Below are positions 28,625 through 52,458 of a DNA stretch of 64,000 nucleotides, piece by piece. Each line of letters starts with the position of its first letter. Position 1 is the first letter of the stretch. The DNA is from Dehalogenimonas formicexedens (GTDB lineage Bacteria > Chloroflexota > Dehalococcoidia > Dehalococcoidales > Dehalococcoidaceae): assembly GCF_001953175.1 (NCBI RefSeq), contig NZ_CP018258.1:62001-126000 (forward strand). The letters are read 5' to 3'. The notes under the pieces are model-generated. The model saw only the letters and a list, made by a program, of their open reading frames with translations, made no database searches and was not told the DNA's origin. The position numbers and the translations under genes were made by a program.

Positions 28625-29635
28625 TTATCCGCCGGGGTGAGTGGGATAAACCTCCTGGAACAGCCAGGTGGACAGATACCGCTCCCCGGTATCGGGCAGG
28701 ACAACCACGATCAGTTTGCCCTTCATCTCCGGGCGTTTGGCTAATTCGACCGCCGCCCAGGCGGCCGCTCCGGAAGAGATGCCGGCCAGGATTCCCTCTT
28801 CCCGTGCCAGCCTCCGCGCCATGATGCCGGCGTTTTCATCGGACACCCGGATGATCTCATCGACCAGGTCGGTTCTCATAACCTGAGGCACGAAACCGGC
28901 GCCGATGCCCTGGATCTTGTGCGGACCGGGTTTGCCTCCGGAAAGTACCGGAGATGCGTCCGGTTCGACTGCAAATGCCTTAAAAGACGGCTTGCGTTTC
29001 TTCAATTCTTCGGCTACGCCGCTGATGGTGCCGCCGGTGCCGACCCCGGCCACCAGCGCATCGACCGCCCCGCCGGTGTCCCGCCAGATTTCATCAGCGG
29101 TGGTCAGGCGGTGGATCTCCGGGTTGGCCGGGTTCTTGAACTGCCCGGGCAAGAAATAGCCGGGGTGGGCGGCCTGGATCTCCTGGGCCCGCCGGATGGC
29201 GCCGGACATGCCCTCCGAACCGGGGGTGAGCACGATTTCGGCGCCGAGAATCGCCAAAAGCTGGCGGCGTTCCATGGAAAATGTCTCCGGCATGGTCAGG
29301 ATCAGCCGGTAGCCGCGCGCCGCGGCGGTAAAGGCCAGGGCGATGCCGGTGTTACCCGACGTCGGTTCGACGATGGTGTCGCCGGGTTTGAGCTTTCCCG
29401 AGGCCTCGGCATCGGTAATCACGGCGACACCGATGCGGTCCTTGACGCTGTGCAGGGGATTGAAAGATTCCAGCTTGGCCACCACCTGCGCCCCCGCCCC
29501 CGCGGTGACGCGGTTTAGCCTTACCAGCGGCGTGTTGCCGATGGTTTCGGTGATATCGCCGGCGATGCCGCGGGTGAGCGCCGGGAAGCTCCTGTTGCGG
29601 TAATTCACCTTTGGAATCTCAGTCACACTTGCCAT
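28625..29635 (-). CDS. cysK: Cysteine synthase (O-acetylserine sulfhydrylase)
   Basis: 336 residues from the ATG with AAAGGAG 6 bases upstream. A longer frame exists but its extra 40 residues look non-coding. The PLP lysine is in [10 protein letters not shown] near residue 62. PTSGNTGIA near 92 and [15 protein letters not shown] bind substrate and phosphate. It makes cysteine from O-acetylserine and sulfide. The Rrf2 regulator with an IscR/CymR-type Cys triad lies directly upstream on the same strand, and a sulfur-relay operon diverges from it. A slightly long N-terminus (about 20 residues) precedes the fold. Confidence 0.96.
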
Positions 29636-29764
29636 TTTGATCTCCTTTGGGGTTTTGTGTCCCGGTATTAGAGAAGCAGCCAGCACGGGCCAGGAGGTTG
29701 GGTAAAACCCTGACTCTTTCGGGTTTAATATTGCGCCTCCCGGTCCAAAAATCAAGATTGGGTA

Positions 29765-30208
29765 CTAGATATAGTACATGTCATCCTGGGGAGATGTCTT
29801 AGCCTTCTGCTTGGCTACCAGATCGGCTAGTGTCGTCTGATCCAGCACCGAAGTTATGGCCTTGCCCACGTCGCCCCAGATATCCCTGGTGGCGCAAAAC
29901 GGGGAACGGTCGCATTTGTCGGGGTTGTGGATGCAGTACACTGGCTCGATGGGGCCTTCCAGTAGGCTGACTACCTCGCTTAAACGGATGGACTCGGGAG
30001 GCTTGGCAAGTTTAAGACCGCCGTGAGAGCCACGGACAGACTGGATCAGCCTGGAATCGACAAGCGGCCCGACAAGCTGCTCGAGATAGGAAAGCGAGAT
30101 CTGTTGTCTGGCGGCGATGTCTTTTAAGGGAATGACATCCTCACCGTAATGTTGGGCAAGATCAAGCAGCGCCCTGGTGCCGTATCTGGCTTTGGTACTG
30201 AGTTTCAT
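29765..30208 (-). CDS. Rrf2 family transcriptional regulator
   Basis: 147 residues. An N-terminal winged helix (KARYGTRALLDLAQHYG, then ISLSYLEQLVGPL, then VRGSHGGLKLAK) carries the Rrf2 fold. Three cysteines (92, 99, 105 in YCIHNPDKCDRSPFC) match the IscR [2Fe-2S]-ligand spacing. CymR-type members instead sense cysteine status through CysK. Its position between cysK and a divergent sulfur operon makes both readings reasonable. The promoter overlaps the palindrome at 30264-30279, so autoregulation is likely. Confidence 0.9.
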   Translation of the reverse strand: MKLSTKARYGTRALLDLAQHYGEDVIPLKDIAARQQISLSYLEQLVGPLVDSRLIQSVRGSHGGLKLAKPPESIRLSEVVSLLEGPIEPVYCIHNPDKCDRSPFCATRDIWGDVGKAITSVLDQTTLADLVAKQKAKTSPQDDMYYI

Positions 30209-30230
30209 TTCAGGTCCTCAAAAGATAAAG

Positions 30231-30279
30231 TTGATTAAACAGGTCGACATAGTCTACAATCAGTTGACAAGGATGTCAA
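30231..30279. promoter_or_regulatory. Divergent promoters sharing one palindromic operator
   Basis: Plus strand: TTGATT (30231-30236), 18 bases, TACAAT (30255-30260), start near 30267. Minus strand (Rrf2 gene): TTGACA (30279-30274), 17 bases, TAGACT (30256-30251). The inverted repeat TTGACA-AGGA-TGTCAA (30264-30279) covers the -35 of the Rrf2 promoter and the start point of the plus promoter, an ideal place for one Rrf2 dimer to act on both. The binding itself is inferred. Confidence 0.6.
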
Positions 30280-30297
30280 ACACCTGGGAGGCACAAA

Positions 30298-30459
30298 ATG
30301 GAAAGGCTAAGAATTAGTACAATGACAACCAATATTTCCCAACCCCAAGATCGGCCGTATCGCAAATCCAGGCAGCCTGGGGGAGCCCGGGGGTTCGCGC
30401 CCGTGCGGTCCGATGTGACTTTGATTGCAGACTTAACTCCCGGAGGTTGTAAAATATGA
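30298..30459 (+). CDS. Possible 53-residue leader ORF upstream of tusA
   Basis: GGGAGG precedes the ATG by 5 bases. The product is basic, Pro/Gly-rich, without membrane segment, and ends LTPGGCKI, a Gly-Gly-Cys close to the C-terminus. Its TGA overlaps the next small ORF as ATGA. I do not recognise it. The overlapping arrangement suggests translation coupling to tusA; the alternative is an untranslated leader. Confidence 0.45.
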   Translation: MERLRISTMTTNISQPQDRPYRKSRQPGGARGFAPVRSDVTLIADLTPGGCKI

Positions 30460-30512
30460 AACAGAGGCCTTCGCCAGCCGCAGTATTCAGAACAGGGGGT
30501 CCAGATGGCTGA
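30456..30512 (+). CDS. Possible 18-residue ORF overlapping tusA
   Basis: ATG overlaps the preceding ORF (ATGA) and has CGGAGG nine bases upstream. The peptide MKQRPSPAAVFRTGGPDG ends at a TGA 5 bases inside tusA. Two successive overlaps make a coupling relay plausible. Confidence 0.35.
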   Translation: MKQRPSPAAVFRTGGPDG

Positions 30513-30726
30513 AATCAAGATCAATTGCCTTGGGGAAACTTGCCCGATCCCCCTGGTAGAGACCCGGAAAGCCATAAGAAAAGCCCTGCCCGGAGATATC
30601 ATCGAGATCACCGGCGACCACCCGGCTTCCAAAAAAGAAATCCCCATGGCGGTCCAGGAAATGGGGCTGGAACTGCTGGAGGTCAAGGGCGACGGGGGCA
30701 CCTGGACGATCAGGATCCGGCGATGA
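30505..30726 (+). CDS. tusA: TusA/SirA-like sulfurtransferase
   Basis: 73 residues, the normal TusA length. The persulfide-carrying Cys13 is in the family motif CPIP (ETCPIPLVETRKAI). GDIIEITGDHPASKKEIP is the second conserved strand-helix. TusA proteins carry sulfur as a cysteine persulfide between partners such as IscS, DsrE and rhodanese proteins. The following DsrE-type and NifS-type genes fit that role. GGGGG lies 5 bases before the ATG. Confidence 0.93.
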   Translation: MAEIKINCLGETCPIPLVETRKAIRKALPGDIIEITGDHPASKKEIPMAVQEMGLELLEVKGDGGTWTIRIRR

Positions 30727-30762
30727 CCGGGTCCACGCCAATTCCCTGCTAGGAGGTTAATG

Positions 30763-31182
30763 ATGGCCGATAAAATTACCATTGTGCTGCACAGCGGGGA
30801 TATGGATAAGGTGTACAGCGCCCTCATCATCGCCAACGGCGCCCTGTCCATGGGCATGGAAGCATCCATATTCTTTACCTTCTGGGGACTCCAGAGGCTA
30901 AAGAAGGGCGGCCTGGACAAGGGGCCGCTGTCCAAGATGCACATGCTGGGCCTGGGAAAATGGATGGTGAAAAACCGGATGAAAAAGGTCAATGTGGCCT
31001 CCCTCGACAGGATGCTCACCGATTTCAAGGAACTGGGCGGCAAAATCCTGGCCTGCGATATGACGATGGAGATCATGGGCATCAAGAAGGAGGACCTGAG
31101 GGAAGACCTGATCTCCGACTATTGCGCCGTGGGCACTTTTGTCCTGGAAGCCAAGAATTCGAAAGTCAGTTTATTTATTTAA
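30763..31182 (+). CDS. DsrE2-like sulfur-relay protein
   Basis: 139 residues. The DsrE/F fold opens with ITIVLHSGDMDKVYSALIIANGA, then a FFTFWGL strand typical of the DsrE2 branch. The candidate persulfide cysteine is Cys98 in GGKILACDMTMEIMGI, and a second Cys121 follows. DsrE2 proteins occur next to TusA in sulfur-relay operons. A hydrophobic segment typical of membrane-bound DsrE2 is weak. ATG at 30763 has AGGAGG six bases upstream; the ATG directly before it is too close. Confidence 0.88.
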   Translation: MADKITIVLHSGDMDKVYSALIIANGALSMGMEASIFFTFWGLQRLKKGGLDKGPLSKMHMLGLGKWMVKNRMKKVNVASLDRMLTDFKELGGKILACDMTMEIMGIKKEDLREDLISDYCAVGTFVLEAKNSKVSLFI

Positions 31183-31190
31183 GGCCTGAT

Positions 31191-32354
31191 ATGAACGATA
31201 AATCTGTTTATTTAGACAATGCCGCGGCGACCAGGCTCGACGAGCGGGTGCTCGAGGCGATGTCGCCGTATTTTTTCCAGACCTATGCCGTGGCGACGTC
31301 CGAATTCGCTTACAGCCAGGGAATAGAGGCAAAAGAAGCCCTTGACGGCGCGCGCGGGCGGCTGGCCGGCCTGCTGGGTGTCACTCCTGAGGAGTTCATC
31401 TTCACCTCGGGGGACACGGAGTCATCCAACATAGCGTTGAAAGGCGTCGCCAAGGCGCTTGGCAAGAGCAAGGGGCGCCACATCATCACCTCCAGGATCG
31501 AGGATTTCCCGGTCCTGCAGAGCGCCAAAGCGCTCGAAAAAGACGGTTTCTCGGTGACCTACCTCGGCGTCGACGGCGAAGGGTTCGTCGATCTCGATCA
31601 ATTGGAGGAAGCGATCACCGGTGAGACGATCCTGGTTTCGGTGCAGCATTCGAACCAGGAAATCGGCACCGTCCAGGACATCGAGGCGATATCCAAAATC
31701 TGCCGCAGCCGGAATACCCTGTTTCATTGCGACGCGACCCATTCCTTCAGGCGGCTGCCCATCGATCTGTCCAGGGTACCCATCGACCTGCTGACGGTGT
31801 CCGCCCATACCATCCACGGCCCCAAGGGCATCGGCGGGCTGGTGGTGCGCAAGGGCACCACCCTGGGAAAACTGATGGACGGCGGATTCCAGGAATTTGA
31901 CCGGCGACCCGGGTTGGAAAATATCCCCGGCGCCATCGGCTTTGCCCGGGCGGCCGAGTTGGTCGACGAGGCCGAAAACGACCGCCTGAGAGCCATGCGC
32001 GACCACGCCATTTGGCGCATCTTGAACGAGATCCCTTCGGTGACGCTGAACGGTTCACCGGTCGACCGTCTGCCGCAGAACGTAAACGTCAGCTTCCACT
32101 TCGTCGAAGGCGAGTCCATAACGCTGCACCTGGACATGCGCGGCTTTGCGGTGAGCACCGGGTCAGCCTGCTTCAGCCGGTCGCTCCAGGGCAGCCATGT
32201 CATTTACGGCATCGGCGGCGACCATGAGCGCGCCCACGGTTCCATCCGGTTGTCGCTGGGACGCTACAACACGCTCGAAGAGGTGGACGCCGCGGTGACC
32301 GCCCTGGCCGAGGTAACCAGGGAACTCCGGAAAATCAGCCCGTTGGGAAAGTAG
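31191..32354 (+). CDS. NifS/IscS-like class V aminotransferase lacking the PLP lysine
   Basis: 387 residues, aligning end to end with group I cysteine desulfurases (YLDNAAATRLDERVLEAM; final SIRLSLGRYNTLEEVDA). The Schiff-base lysine expected in SAHK is Thr207 (VSAHTIHGPKG). The PLP-stacking His is Asp105 (RIEDFPVL), the conserved NNE is NQE (155-157), and the PLP Gln is His184 (DATHSF). The sulfur-carrying Cys327 (TGSACFS), Asp181 and Arg353 remain. An intact iscS lies at 51295-52458. The frame is clean, so this is not decay. It probably cannot do PLP-lysine chemistry and may be a scaffold, a persulfide carrier or a regulator for its operon partners. Confidence 0.85.
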   Translation: MNDKSVYLDNAAATRLDERVLEAMSPYFFQTYAVATSEFAYSQGIEAKEALDGARGRLAGLLGVTPEEFIFTSGDTESSNIALKGVAKALGKSKGRHIITSRIEDFPVLQSAKALEKDGFSVTYLGVDGEGFVDLDQLEEAITGETILVSVQHSNQEIGTVQDIEAISKICRSRNTLFHCDATHSFRRLPIDLSRVPIDLLTVSAHTIHGPKGIGGLVVRKGTTLGKLMDGGFQEFDRRPGLENIPGAIGFARAAELVDEAENDRLRAMRDHAIWRILNEIPSVTLNGSPVDRLPQNVNVSFHFVEGESITLHLDMRGFAVSTGSACFSRSLQGSHVIYGIGGDHERAHGSIRLSLGRYNTLEEVDAAVTALAEVTRELRKISPLGK

Positions 32355-32363
32355 GAGAAAGAT

Positions 32364-33002
32364 ATGCCGAACCTGCCGTATACCGATAAAGTAATGGAGC
32401 ATTTCAAGCACCCGCGCAACGTGGGGCGGATTGAAAATCCCGACGGTAAAGCCACTGAGGGCAGCCCGGCCTGCGGCGACATGGTGTCGGTGTATATCAA
32501 GGTCGACGACCGGACGAAGAAACTCTCAGATATCAAATTCGAGTCCTATGGCTGCGCCTCCAACATCGCCACCGGATCGATCATCACCGAACTGGCCCGC
32601 GGCAAGACGCTGGAAGAGGCCAAAAACATCACCTGGCAGGAGGCCTCCGAAGCCCTGGGGGGTTTACCCAAGATCAAGTCCCACTGCTCGGTACTGGCGG
32701 TGGAGGGGCTCCGGTCGGCGATTCAGAATTACGAGGAAAGGTACGGCCTGATCACGGAAAGGGAACCGACCACGGTCGAGGGCATCCGGAAACGCCTGAA
32801 GAAGGTCATCAACCCGATTAGCGGCCTTGACGTGATGAGGACGAACCTGGTCAAGGACATCTCGCTAAACGAAGGGCGGGTGACCATCGATCTCGACCTG
32901 CCGCAGAACCACCAGTTCGCCCCGGCGATCCAGGATGAGATCAAAGAGAAAATCGAGCCGCTCTGGGATGTGAAAGAGGTAGTTATCAACTACACAGATT
33001 GA
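32364..33002 (+). CDS. IscU-type Fe-S scaffold fused to a DUF59/MIP18-like domain
   Basis: 212 residues. Residues 1-125 are an IscU/NifU-N domain: Cys37 (PACGD, with Asp39), Cys64 (SYGCAS) and His107-Cys108 (KSHCSV) form the cluster site. Residues 137-212 look like a DUF59/MIP18 (SufT, Mrp N-terminal) domain: IRKRLKKVINPISGLDVM, then GRVTIDLDLP and VKEVVINY. The usual Cys-Pro of DUF59 is replaced by NHQF. It should assemble and perhaps deliver Fe-S clusters. Genes upstream supply TusA, DsrE and NifS-like partners. Confidence 0.88.
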   Translation: MPNLPYTDKVMEHFKHPRNVGRIENPDGKATEGSPACGDMVSVYIKVDDRTKKLSDIKFESYGCASNIATGSIITELARGKTLEEAKNITWQEASEALGGLPKIKSHCSVLAVEGLRSAIQNYEERYGLITEREPTTVEGIRKRLKKVINPISGLDVMRTNLVKDISLNEGRVTIDLDLPQNHQFAPAIQDEIKEKIEPLWDVKEVVINYTD

Positions 33003-51294: not shown

Positions 51295-52458
51295 TTATTT
51301 TCTCGCCCACAGCGGGGACATGGCCCGCAACCGGGCAACGACTCCCGGAAGGACCTCCAACACCCGATCAATGTCATCGCCGGTGGTCCAACGCCCGAGA
51401 GACAGCCTCAGGGAGCCAAATGCCTGGTGCTGAGGCAGTCCCAGGGCAAGTAAGACGTGTGAAGGTGCGGTACTCGTCGAAGAACAAGCGGAGCCGGGAG
51501 AAGCCGAAATGCCTGCCAGGTCCAGATTGAGACAGACGCTCTCTCCTTCGACATAATCGAAGGAGAAGTTGGCATTATTCGGCAGGCGTTGTGTCGGGTG
51601 GCCGTTGAGGCGGGTTTCGGGGATAGTTGAAAGAACCCCGGCGATCAGCCGGTCACGCAGGGCTGACAGTCGCCCGGACTCGGAAGCCATGGTGAGTTGG
51701 GCCAGTTCAACGGCTTTGCCGAAGCCGACGATGCCGGGAACGTTTTCGGTTCCCGAACGCTTGCCGCGCTCCTGGCCTCCGCCCCACAGAATGGGCGAAA
51801 TCCTGGTGCCCTTCCGTATGTAAAGGGCGCCGATGCCTTTGGGACCGTACAATTTATGAGCGGAAACGCTGAGGAGATCGACACCGAGCGCCTCAACGTC
51901 GACGGGAATCCTGCCTGCCGCCTGCACCGCGTCGGAGTGGAGGTAGACACCTTTCTCACGGGTGATTTTAGAAATTTCCGCCAGATTTTGGATGGTGCCG
52001 ATCTCATTGTTGGCCAAGATTACCGAAACGACGGCGGTATCCGGCCGAACCGCTTTTTCGACTTCACCCGGATCAAGCATCCCGTTGGTATCGACCGGCA
52101 ATACTGTGACCGAGGCTCCGTTTTTCTCCAGGAAATGACAGGTTTCCAAAACAGCGTGGTGCTCAATCGCGGTGGTGATGACATGCCTTCCGCGGCAACC
52201 GTTGGCATTCAGGATGCCTGCGAGCGCCATGTTGTCGGCTTCGGTGCCGCCGCTCAGGAAAAGAATCTCGTCAGGGCGGGCGTTTATCAGCCTTGCCAGC
52301 GACCCACGGGCCTTTTCGACGGCCTGCCGGGCTTCCTGTCCCTCGGCGTAGATGGCGGACGGATTACCCGGAAAATCATGGAAATAGGGCAGCATTGCCT
52401 CAAGGACTTCCGGGGCGACCGGCGTGGTGGCGGCGTAGTCAAGGTAACTGCGTTTCAT
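51295..52458 (-). CDS. iscS: Cysteine desulfurase IscS/NifS
   Basis: 387 residues, with all catalytic residues in place: His100 (IEHHAVLE), NNE (150-152), Asp176 and Gln179 (HSDAVQAAG), PLP Lys202 (SAHKLYGPKG) and sulfur-carrying Cys325 (PGSACSS). It converts cysteine to alanine with a persulfide for Fe-S and tRNA sulfur. The operon has an Rrf2 regulator and a small zinc protein upstream. It contrasts with the lysine-less paralogue at 31191-32354. Confidence 0.96.
   Translation of the reverse strand: MKRSYLDYAATTPVAPEVLEAMLPYFHDFPGNPSAIYAEGQEARQAVEKARGSLARLINARPDEILFLSGGTEADNMALAGILNANGCRGRHVITTAIEHHAVLETCHFLEKNGASVTVLPVDTNGMLDPGEVEKAVRPDTAVVSVILANNEIGTIQNLAEISKITREKGVYLHSDAVQAAGRIPVDVEALGVDLLSVSAHKLYGPKGIGALYIRKGTRISPILWGGGQERGKRSGTENVPGIVGFGKAVELAQLTMASESGRLSALRDRLIAGVLSTIPETRLNGHPTQRLPNNANFSFDYVEGESVCLNLDLAGISASPGSACSSTSTAPSHVLLALGLPQHQAFGSLRLSLGRWTTGDDIDRVLEVLPGVVARLRAMSPLWARK

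Follow-up and report, generated by a model that had tools for sequence, protein, structure and literature searches.

A conserved NifS/IscS paralogue without the pyridoxal phosphate lysine, encoded in a tusA-dsrE2-nifS*-iscU operon of bacteria and archaea

IscS proteins without the lysine that normally holds pyridoxal 5′-phosphate (PLP) are already known, namely, Archaeoglobus fulgidus IscS2 (K199D; PDB 4eb5, 4hvk, and 4r5f) and Methanosarcina acetivorans IscS1 (MA0808). The A. fulgidus protein is described as devoid of desulfurase activity and as contributing its loop cysteine to the coordination of the [2Fe-2S] cluster held by IscU (PMC7585200). M. acetivorans IscS1 lacks both the lysine and the PLP residues and carries the motif STGSACFS; iscS1 is clustered with iscU1 (MA0807, encoding a 24-kDa protein), and four functionally uncharacterized genes belong to the same cluster (PMC7585200). 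Here we describe a NifS/IscS paralogue, which we call NifS*, encoded in 64,000 nucleotides of Dehalogenimonas formicexedens (contig NZ_CP018258.1, positions 62,001 to 126,000; the whole stretch is the window below, and coordinates are those of the window). Judged from its residues, NifS* is not a canonical PLP desulfurase; it belongs to a conserved family, encoded in most loci beside tusA, dsrE2, and iscU.

The gene and the copy with which it was compared are as follows.

31191 to 32354, plus strand: nifS*, NifS/IscS paralogue without the PLP lysine; 387 aa, with T207, D105, Q156, and H184, and C327 kept
51295 to 52458, minus strand: canonical IscS, comparison copy in the alignment, with intact SAHK and PLP residues

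In the alignment of the two, Thr207 stands in place of the Schiff-base lysine of SAHK, Asp105 in place of the stacking His, Gln156 in place of an Asn (NNE to NQE), and His184 in place of the cofactor Gln, while Asp181, Cys327, and the SIRLSLGR sequence are retained over an intact frame of 387 codons. These replacements and retentions had been claimed by a first-pass annotation made from the sequence, and all of them are borne out, as is its statement that the canonical gene has every one of the usual residues; the annotation did not mention that this gene is encoded on the minus strand. The PLP-phosphate Thr (position 242) is mostly Leu, Val, or Ile in the NifS* clade. Thus the Schiff-base lysine, stacking His, cofactor Gln, and phosphate Thr of canonical desulfurases are all missing from NifS*, while all four positions are intact in 50 of 50 canonical rows. 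The complete 2.09-Mb genome has three NifS-like genes including nifS*; the other two are 44 to 46% identical to it and keep the lysine.

In Escherichia coli IscS, H104, D180, Q183, and K206 are required for holding PLP and for the reaction with cysteine; changes at H104, Q183, and K206 block reaction intermediates or displace PLP, and activity is abolished when the D180 and Q183 contacts are lost (PMC9978102). Because all of these residues but D180 are replaced in NifS* and the phosphate Thr is gone as well, canonical desulfuration by NifS* is very unlikely, and we infer from the residues that PLP binding and activity have been lost. No obvious replacement for the lysine was seen in the clade, in which Lys227 is the sole clade-specific invariant lysine.

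NifS* nevertheless resembles the canonical group I IscS/NifS proteins in its fold, its Cys loop, its IscU partner, and an identity of 41 to 46%, differing from them in that their Lys, His, Asn, Gln, and phosphate Thr are all replaced. The full-length fold is recognized by Pfam (Aminotran_5, 1.1e-65), and an AlphaFold model predicts a complete NifS fold (predicted local distance difference test score of 91.6) that matches human Nfs1 with a Z score of 55 and a root mean square deviation of 1.4. The score of 424.6 bits lies below the curated NCBIfam equivalog cutoff of 530.75 for FeS_nifS. Cys327, the presumptive persulfide cysteine, is present in 81/81 rows of the family alignment described below, on a loop (326 to 330) that is disordered in the model.

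To see how widely this pocket occurs, the GTDB species genomes were scanned with the patterns YAVATSEF and [GA]YSQGIEA, yielding 80 loci, or 81 rows with the window gene. T207, D105, H184, C327, Phe328, and His209 are invariant in all 81, and Gln156 is present in 79; since the retrieval peptides lie outside T207, D105, H184, and C327, the conservation of these four is not circular. Orthologues about 71 to 91% identical, with identical substitutions, are found in six other sampled Dehalococcoidia genomes. In a 133-row tree, the NifS* rows form one monophyletic group (Shimodaira-Hasegawa approximate likelihood ratio support of 100, stem of 0.93). At 27 positions, all members of the clade share a residue that canonical rows seldom have; these include loop 33 to 39 (AVATSxF for GNPSS), D105, F106, Q152, Q156, C171, T183, H184, T207, K227, D230, H303, H313, F328, G343, and D344. 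The Phe directly after the loop cysteine is found in 82/82 NifS* and 0/50 canonical sequences. Compared with its G200 orthologue, nifS* has a ratio of nonsynonymous to synonymous substitution of 0.069, indicating strong purifying selection. The loss of the lysine, as read from these sequences, is therefore no one-off but the mark of a conserved, long-kept family.

A second invariant cysteine, Cys171 (codon 31701 to 31703), is present in 82/82 NifS* sequences and in none of the 50 canonical rows. A phage or mobile origin of the gene was considered and rejected, as no relative was found in viral contigs.

The other genes of the operon are these.

30505 to 30726, plus strand: tusA-like sulfurtransferase, 73 aa; Pfam TusA, 1.6e-22; Cys13 in a CPxP motif
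30760 to 31182, plus strand: dsrE2 sulfur carrier, 140 aa; Pfam DrsE_2, 1.5e-34; Cys99
32364 to 33002, plus strand: iscU scaffold with a C-terminal DUF59 domain (FeS_assembly_P), 212 aa; NifU_N, 6.3e-42, and FeS_assembly_P, 2.2e-12

The TusA-DsrE-IscU context that had been proposed for the gene is supported by both coordinates and Pfam, with the addition of the DUF59 domain fused to IscU, and a clade with the same substitutions next to these genes, which the first-pass annotation had suggested looking for, does exist. In the window, 33, 8, and 9 bp separate the four genes. The order tusA-dsrE2-nifS*-iscU is found in 69/80 loci (the medians of the three gaps are 13, 15, and 10 bases), and its carriers include methanogens, Dehalococcoidia, Clostridia, and Atribacterota. 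Of 294 Dehalococcoidia, 7 have nifS*, and the same 7 have iscU-DUF59; a close dsrE2 is present in these 7 plus one contig-edge case (Fisher P of about 1e-13). Mirror-tree correlations among the four genes are 0.70 to 0.80, and the operon mates, too, have low substitution ratios against their G200 orthologues (tusA, 0.067; dsrE2, 0.022; iscU, 0.040). The operon is co-inherited. No fifth conserved gene emerged from the neighbor clusters of the NifS* loci; the other frequent clusters are either shadow open reading frames (ORFs) or genes confined to particular lineages, for example, one resembling the HIT family that is found upstream in part of the methanogen loci.

The residues expected of a sulfur relay are kept throughout. 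Cys13 of TusA is invariant (74/74), as is Cys99 of DsrE2 (75/75), and the operon IscU has a complete Cys3/Asp/His cluster site, with C37, D39, C64, H107, and C108 in 79/79. E. coli IscS needs E49, and also W45 and D52, for TusA binding (PMC2854127); the position equivalent to E49 is Glu or Asp in 82/82 NifS* sequences, and Glu in 13/50 canonical ones. The closest solved structure to DsrE2 is 2qs7 (Sulfolobus SSO1126), a protein called DsrE2B (PMC4175335). The same two carrier families make up the relays of sulfur oxidizers (rhd-tusA-dsrE2 and DsrE3A-DsrE2B-TusA) (PMC4175335), but those are tied to hdr or dsr genes, whereas here tusA-dsrE2 is tied to nifS*-iscU.

How does NifS* compare with the lysine-less proteins already described? 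A. fulgidus IscS2 (4eb5, 4eb7, 4hvk, and 4r5f) likewise has a NifS fold without the lysine (Asp199), a retained Cys loop, and an IscU partner, and that IscU (4eb5_C) is the closest solved relative of the window IscU. Unlike NifS*, it retains the stacking His and the Asn of NNE; the pocket strings are TDNQDHSHT in NifS* and THNNDASND in IscS2. It falls outside the NifS* clade, although on a long branch, so that a common origin of the lysine loss is unsupported. M. acetivorans IscS1 can be set alongside by its published description: STGSACFS has the Phe after the loop cysteine, and IscS1 very probably belongs to the NifS* family. That paper names neither tusA nor dsrE2 and describes no wider family (PMC7585200). 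In the open-licence literature, we found no description of the NifS* family as a whole, the tusA-dsrE2 operon, its spread over two domains, or the rebuilt pocket.

The loci are distributed among Methanobacteriota (41), Chloroflexota (22), and Bacillota (7), with others in Atribacterota, Actinomycetota, Nitrospirota, Myxococcota, Caldifarciminota, and Thermoplasmatota; these groups are largely anaerobic. Within the genus of the window, nifS* is present in two of eight genomes. This low count, the otherwise patchy distribution, and the intermixing of archaeal and bacterial sequences in the tree suggest that the operon has spread by horizontal transfer.

We consider it somewhat probable that NifS* is the PLP-free hub of a dedicated iron-sulfur (Fe-S) assembly module, receiving sulfur from TusA and DsrE2 and/or lending a cysteine ligand to IscU. 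We favor this reading because canonical desulfuration is so unlikely, because the A. fulgidus IscS lends its loop cysteine, and because the window IscU is closest to the A. fulgidus IscU. The conserved clade with its replaced pocket, the co-inherited operon with its invariant relay residues, and the acidic residue at the E49 position speak for it as well. NifS* would not desulfurate cysteine; Cys13 of TusA and Cys99 of DsrE2 would supply Cys327, in the disordered loop, with sulfane sulfur from a source other than cysteine (sulfide-derived, polysulfide, or thiosulfonate). One can picture this loop swinging to a docked IscU and handing the sulfur over, and/or Cys327 serving as an additional ligand while the cluster forms, as its counterpart does in the structure of A. 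fulgidus IscS with IscU. The net effect would be an iron-sulfur cluster (ISC) system whose sulfur input has shifted from the PLP reaction to a TusA/DsrE2 relay; we infer both the direction of transfer and the sulfur source. The fuller version, a cysteine-independent ISC system of strict anaerobes in which TusA and DsrE2 bring sulfide-derived sulfane sulfur to a PLP-free NifS with a pocket rebuilt for persulfide or metal handling that feeds IscU-DUF59, we put forward more tentatively. The original suggestion of a non-desulfurase serving as a persulfide carrier, scaffold, or sensor thus survives in part: the protein is noncanonical by sequence, and carrier or scaffold is the best-supported idea, but nothing specific points to a sensor.

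Several observations weigh against the hub reading. The equivalents of E. coli W45 and D52 are less conserved in NifS* (Ile at 45, variable at 52). Two Methanococcoides loci (L081 and L094) have nifS*-iscU without an adjacent tusA-dsrE2; a dsrE2 gene (67% identity) lies elsewhere in the L094 genome, and the L081 genome has no dsrE2 match. At least one lysine-bearing desulfurase is also encoded in 29 of the 34 host genomes searched, so nifS* is no simple replacement, and the idea that it substitutes for all host desulfurases was rejected. The other five (WOR-3, two Methanofastidiosum, Methanothrix UBA1, and Atribacteria) count in favor of the hub, since no such desulfurase was found in them and NifS* is the sole NifS-class protein seen, but all five are metagenome-assembled genomes (MAGs) and possibly incomplete.

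The alternative that survives best, though we regard it as unlikely, is a ligand scaffold of the A. fulgidus kind, in which NifS* clamps IscU and Cys327 is the fourth ligand but carries no sulfur, the cluster being built from free sulfide and iron while TusA and DsrE2 serve another step. A. fulgidus IscS-IscU, with its cysteine ligand and no desulfurase activity (PMC7585200), is the closest precedent; the kinship of the two IscU proteins and the Methanococcoides loci also fit. Against it, most loci have tusA-dsrE2, which keeps its thiols without exception and is inherited along with nifS*, and the lysine was apparently lost independently of A. fulgidus, so the function need not be common to both.

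Less likely still, NifS* might act as a pseudoenzyme, a partner or competitor of the host's canonical IscS that tunes sulfur delivery to its own IscU. The desulfurases retained by most hosts would allow this, and a canonical iscS-iscU pair adjoins the operon in three loci, but the five hosts without a detected desulfurase and the position of canonical IscS outside the conserved operon argue otherwise. We think it slightly more improbable again that the pocket of D105, Q156, D181, H184, H206, T207, and H209 has acquired a new chemistry, binding a metal or small molecule for PLP-free sulfur catalysis or holding PLP noncovalently, with Lys227 perhaps taking over. The clade-fixed substitutions, including pocket residues and AVATSEF for GNPSS, do speak of constraint rather than decay, and Lys227 stands alone as noted; the loss of the phosphate-binding Thr counts against this. 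Finally, a decaying pseudogene or a sequencing error, toward which only the lost catalytic residues point, can be dismissed, given intact frames, purifying selection, and 80 further loci with T207, D105, H184, and C327.

The surroundings of the operon vary. In the window, a cysteine synthase gene, cysK (28625 to 29755, minus strand), and an Rrf2 gene lie divergently upstream, and such a pair is also found near the operon in L036 and L040.

29765 to 30208, minus strand: Rrf2-family regulator (CymR/IscR-like), divergent neighbor; may regulate locally but is not a conserved companion of the operon
30209 to 30504, plus strand: intergenic stretch from which the Rrf2 gene and the operon diverge; both strands have a promoter-like site, with only weak matches to the consensus

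In L036, L040, and L056, the operon has a canonical iscS-iscU pair no more than about 3 kb away. Ten loci are without some operon gene; nifS* is near a contig end in six of them, and the other four (L081, L094, L112, and L061) seem to have undergone genuine rearrangement, divergence, or loss. In the L112 genome, a relative of dsrE2 (G329:C14:3445-3828) is interrupted by four stops and may be in decay. In five loci from Dehalococcoidia MAGs (L047, L052, L053, L057, and L060), an insertion separates nifS* from iscU; some of these contain an ORF resembling, by eye, an Asp/Glu racemase family protein.

NifS* proteins score strongly against cysteine desulfurase models, and automatic annotation may therefore count dead copies as active enzymes. 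With regard to the cysteine-independent supply of sulfur for Fe-S clusters in sulfide-using anaerobes, one known minimal system, SMS, lacks a desulfurase and is able to work with sulfide (PMC12192291). The NifS* operon suggests that Fe-S assembly may be fed without a desulfurase's normal chemistry, and it provides a testable candidate in which the IscS-IscU architecture has been kept and the PLP chemistry dropped.
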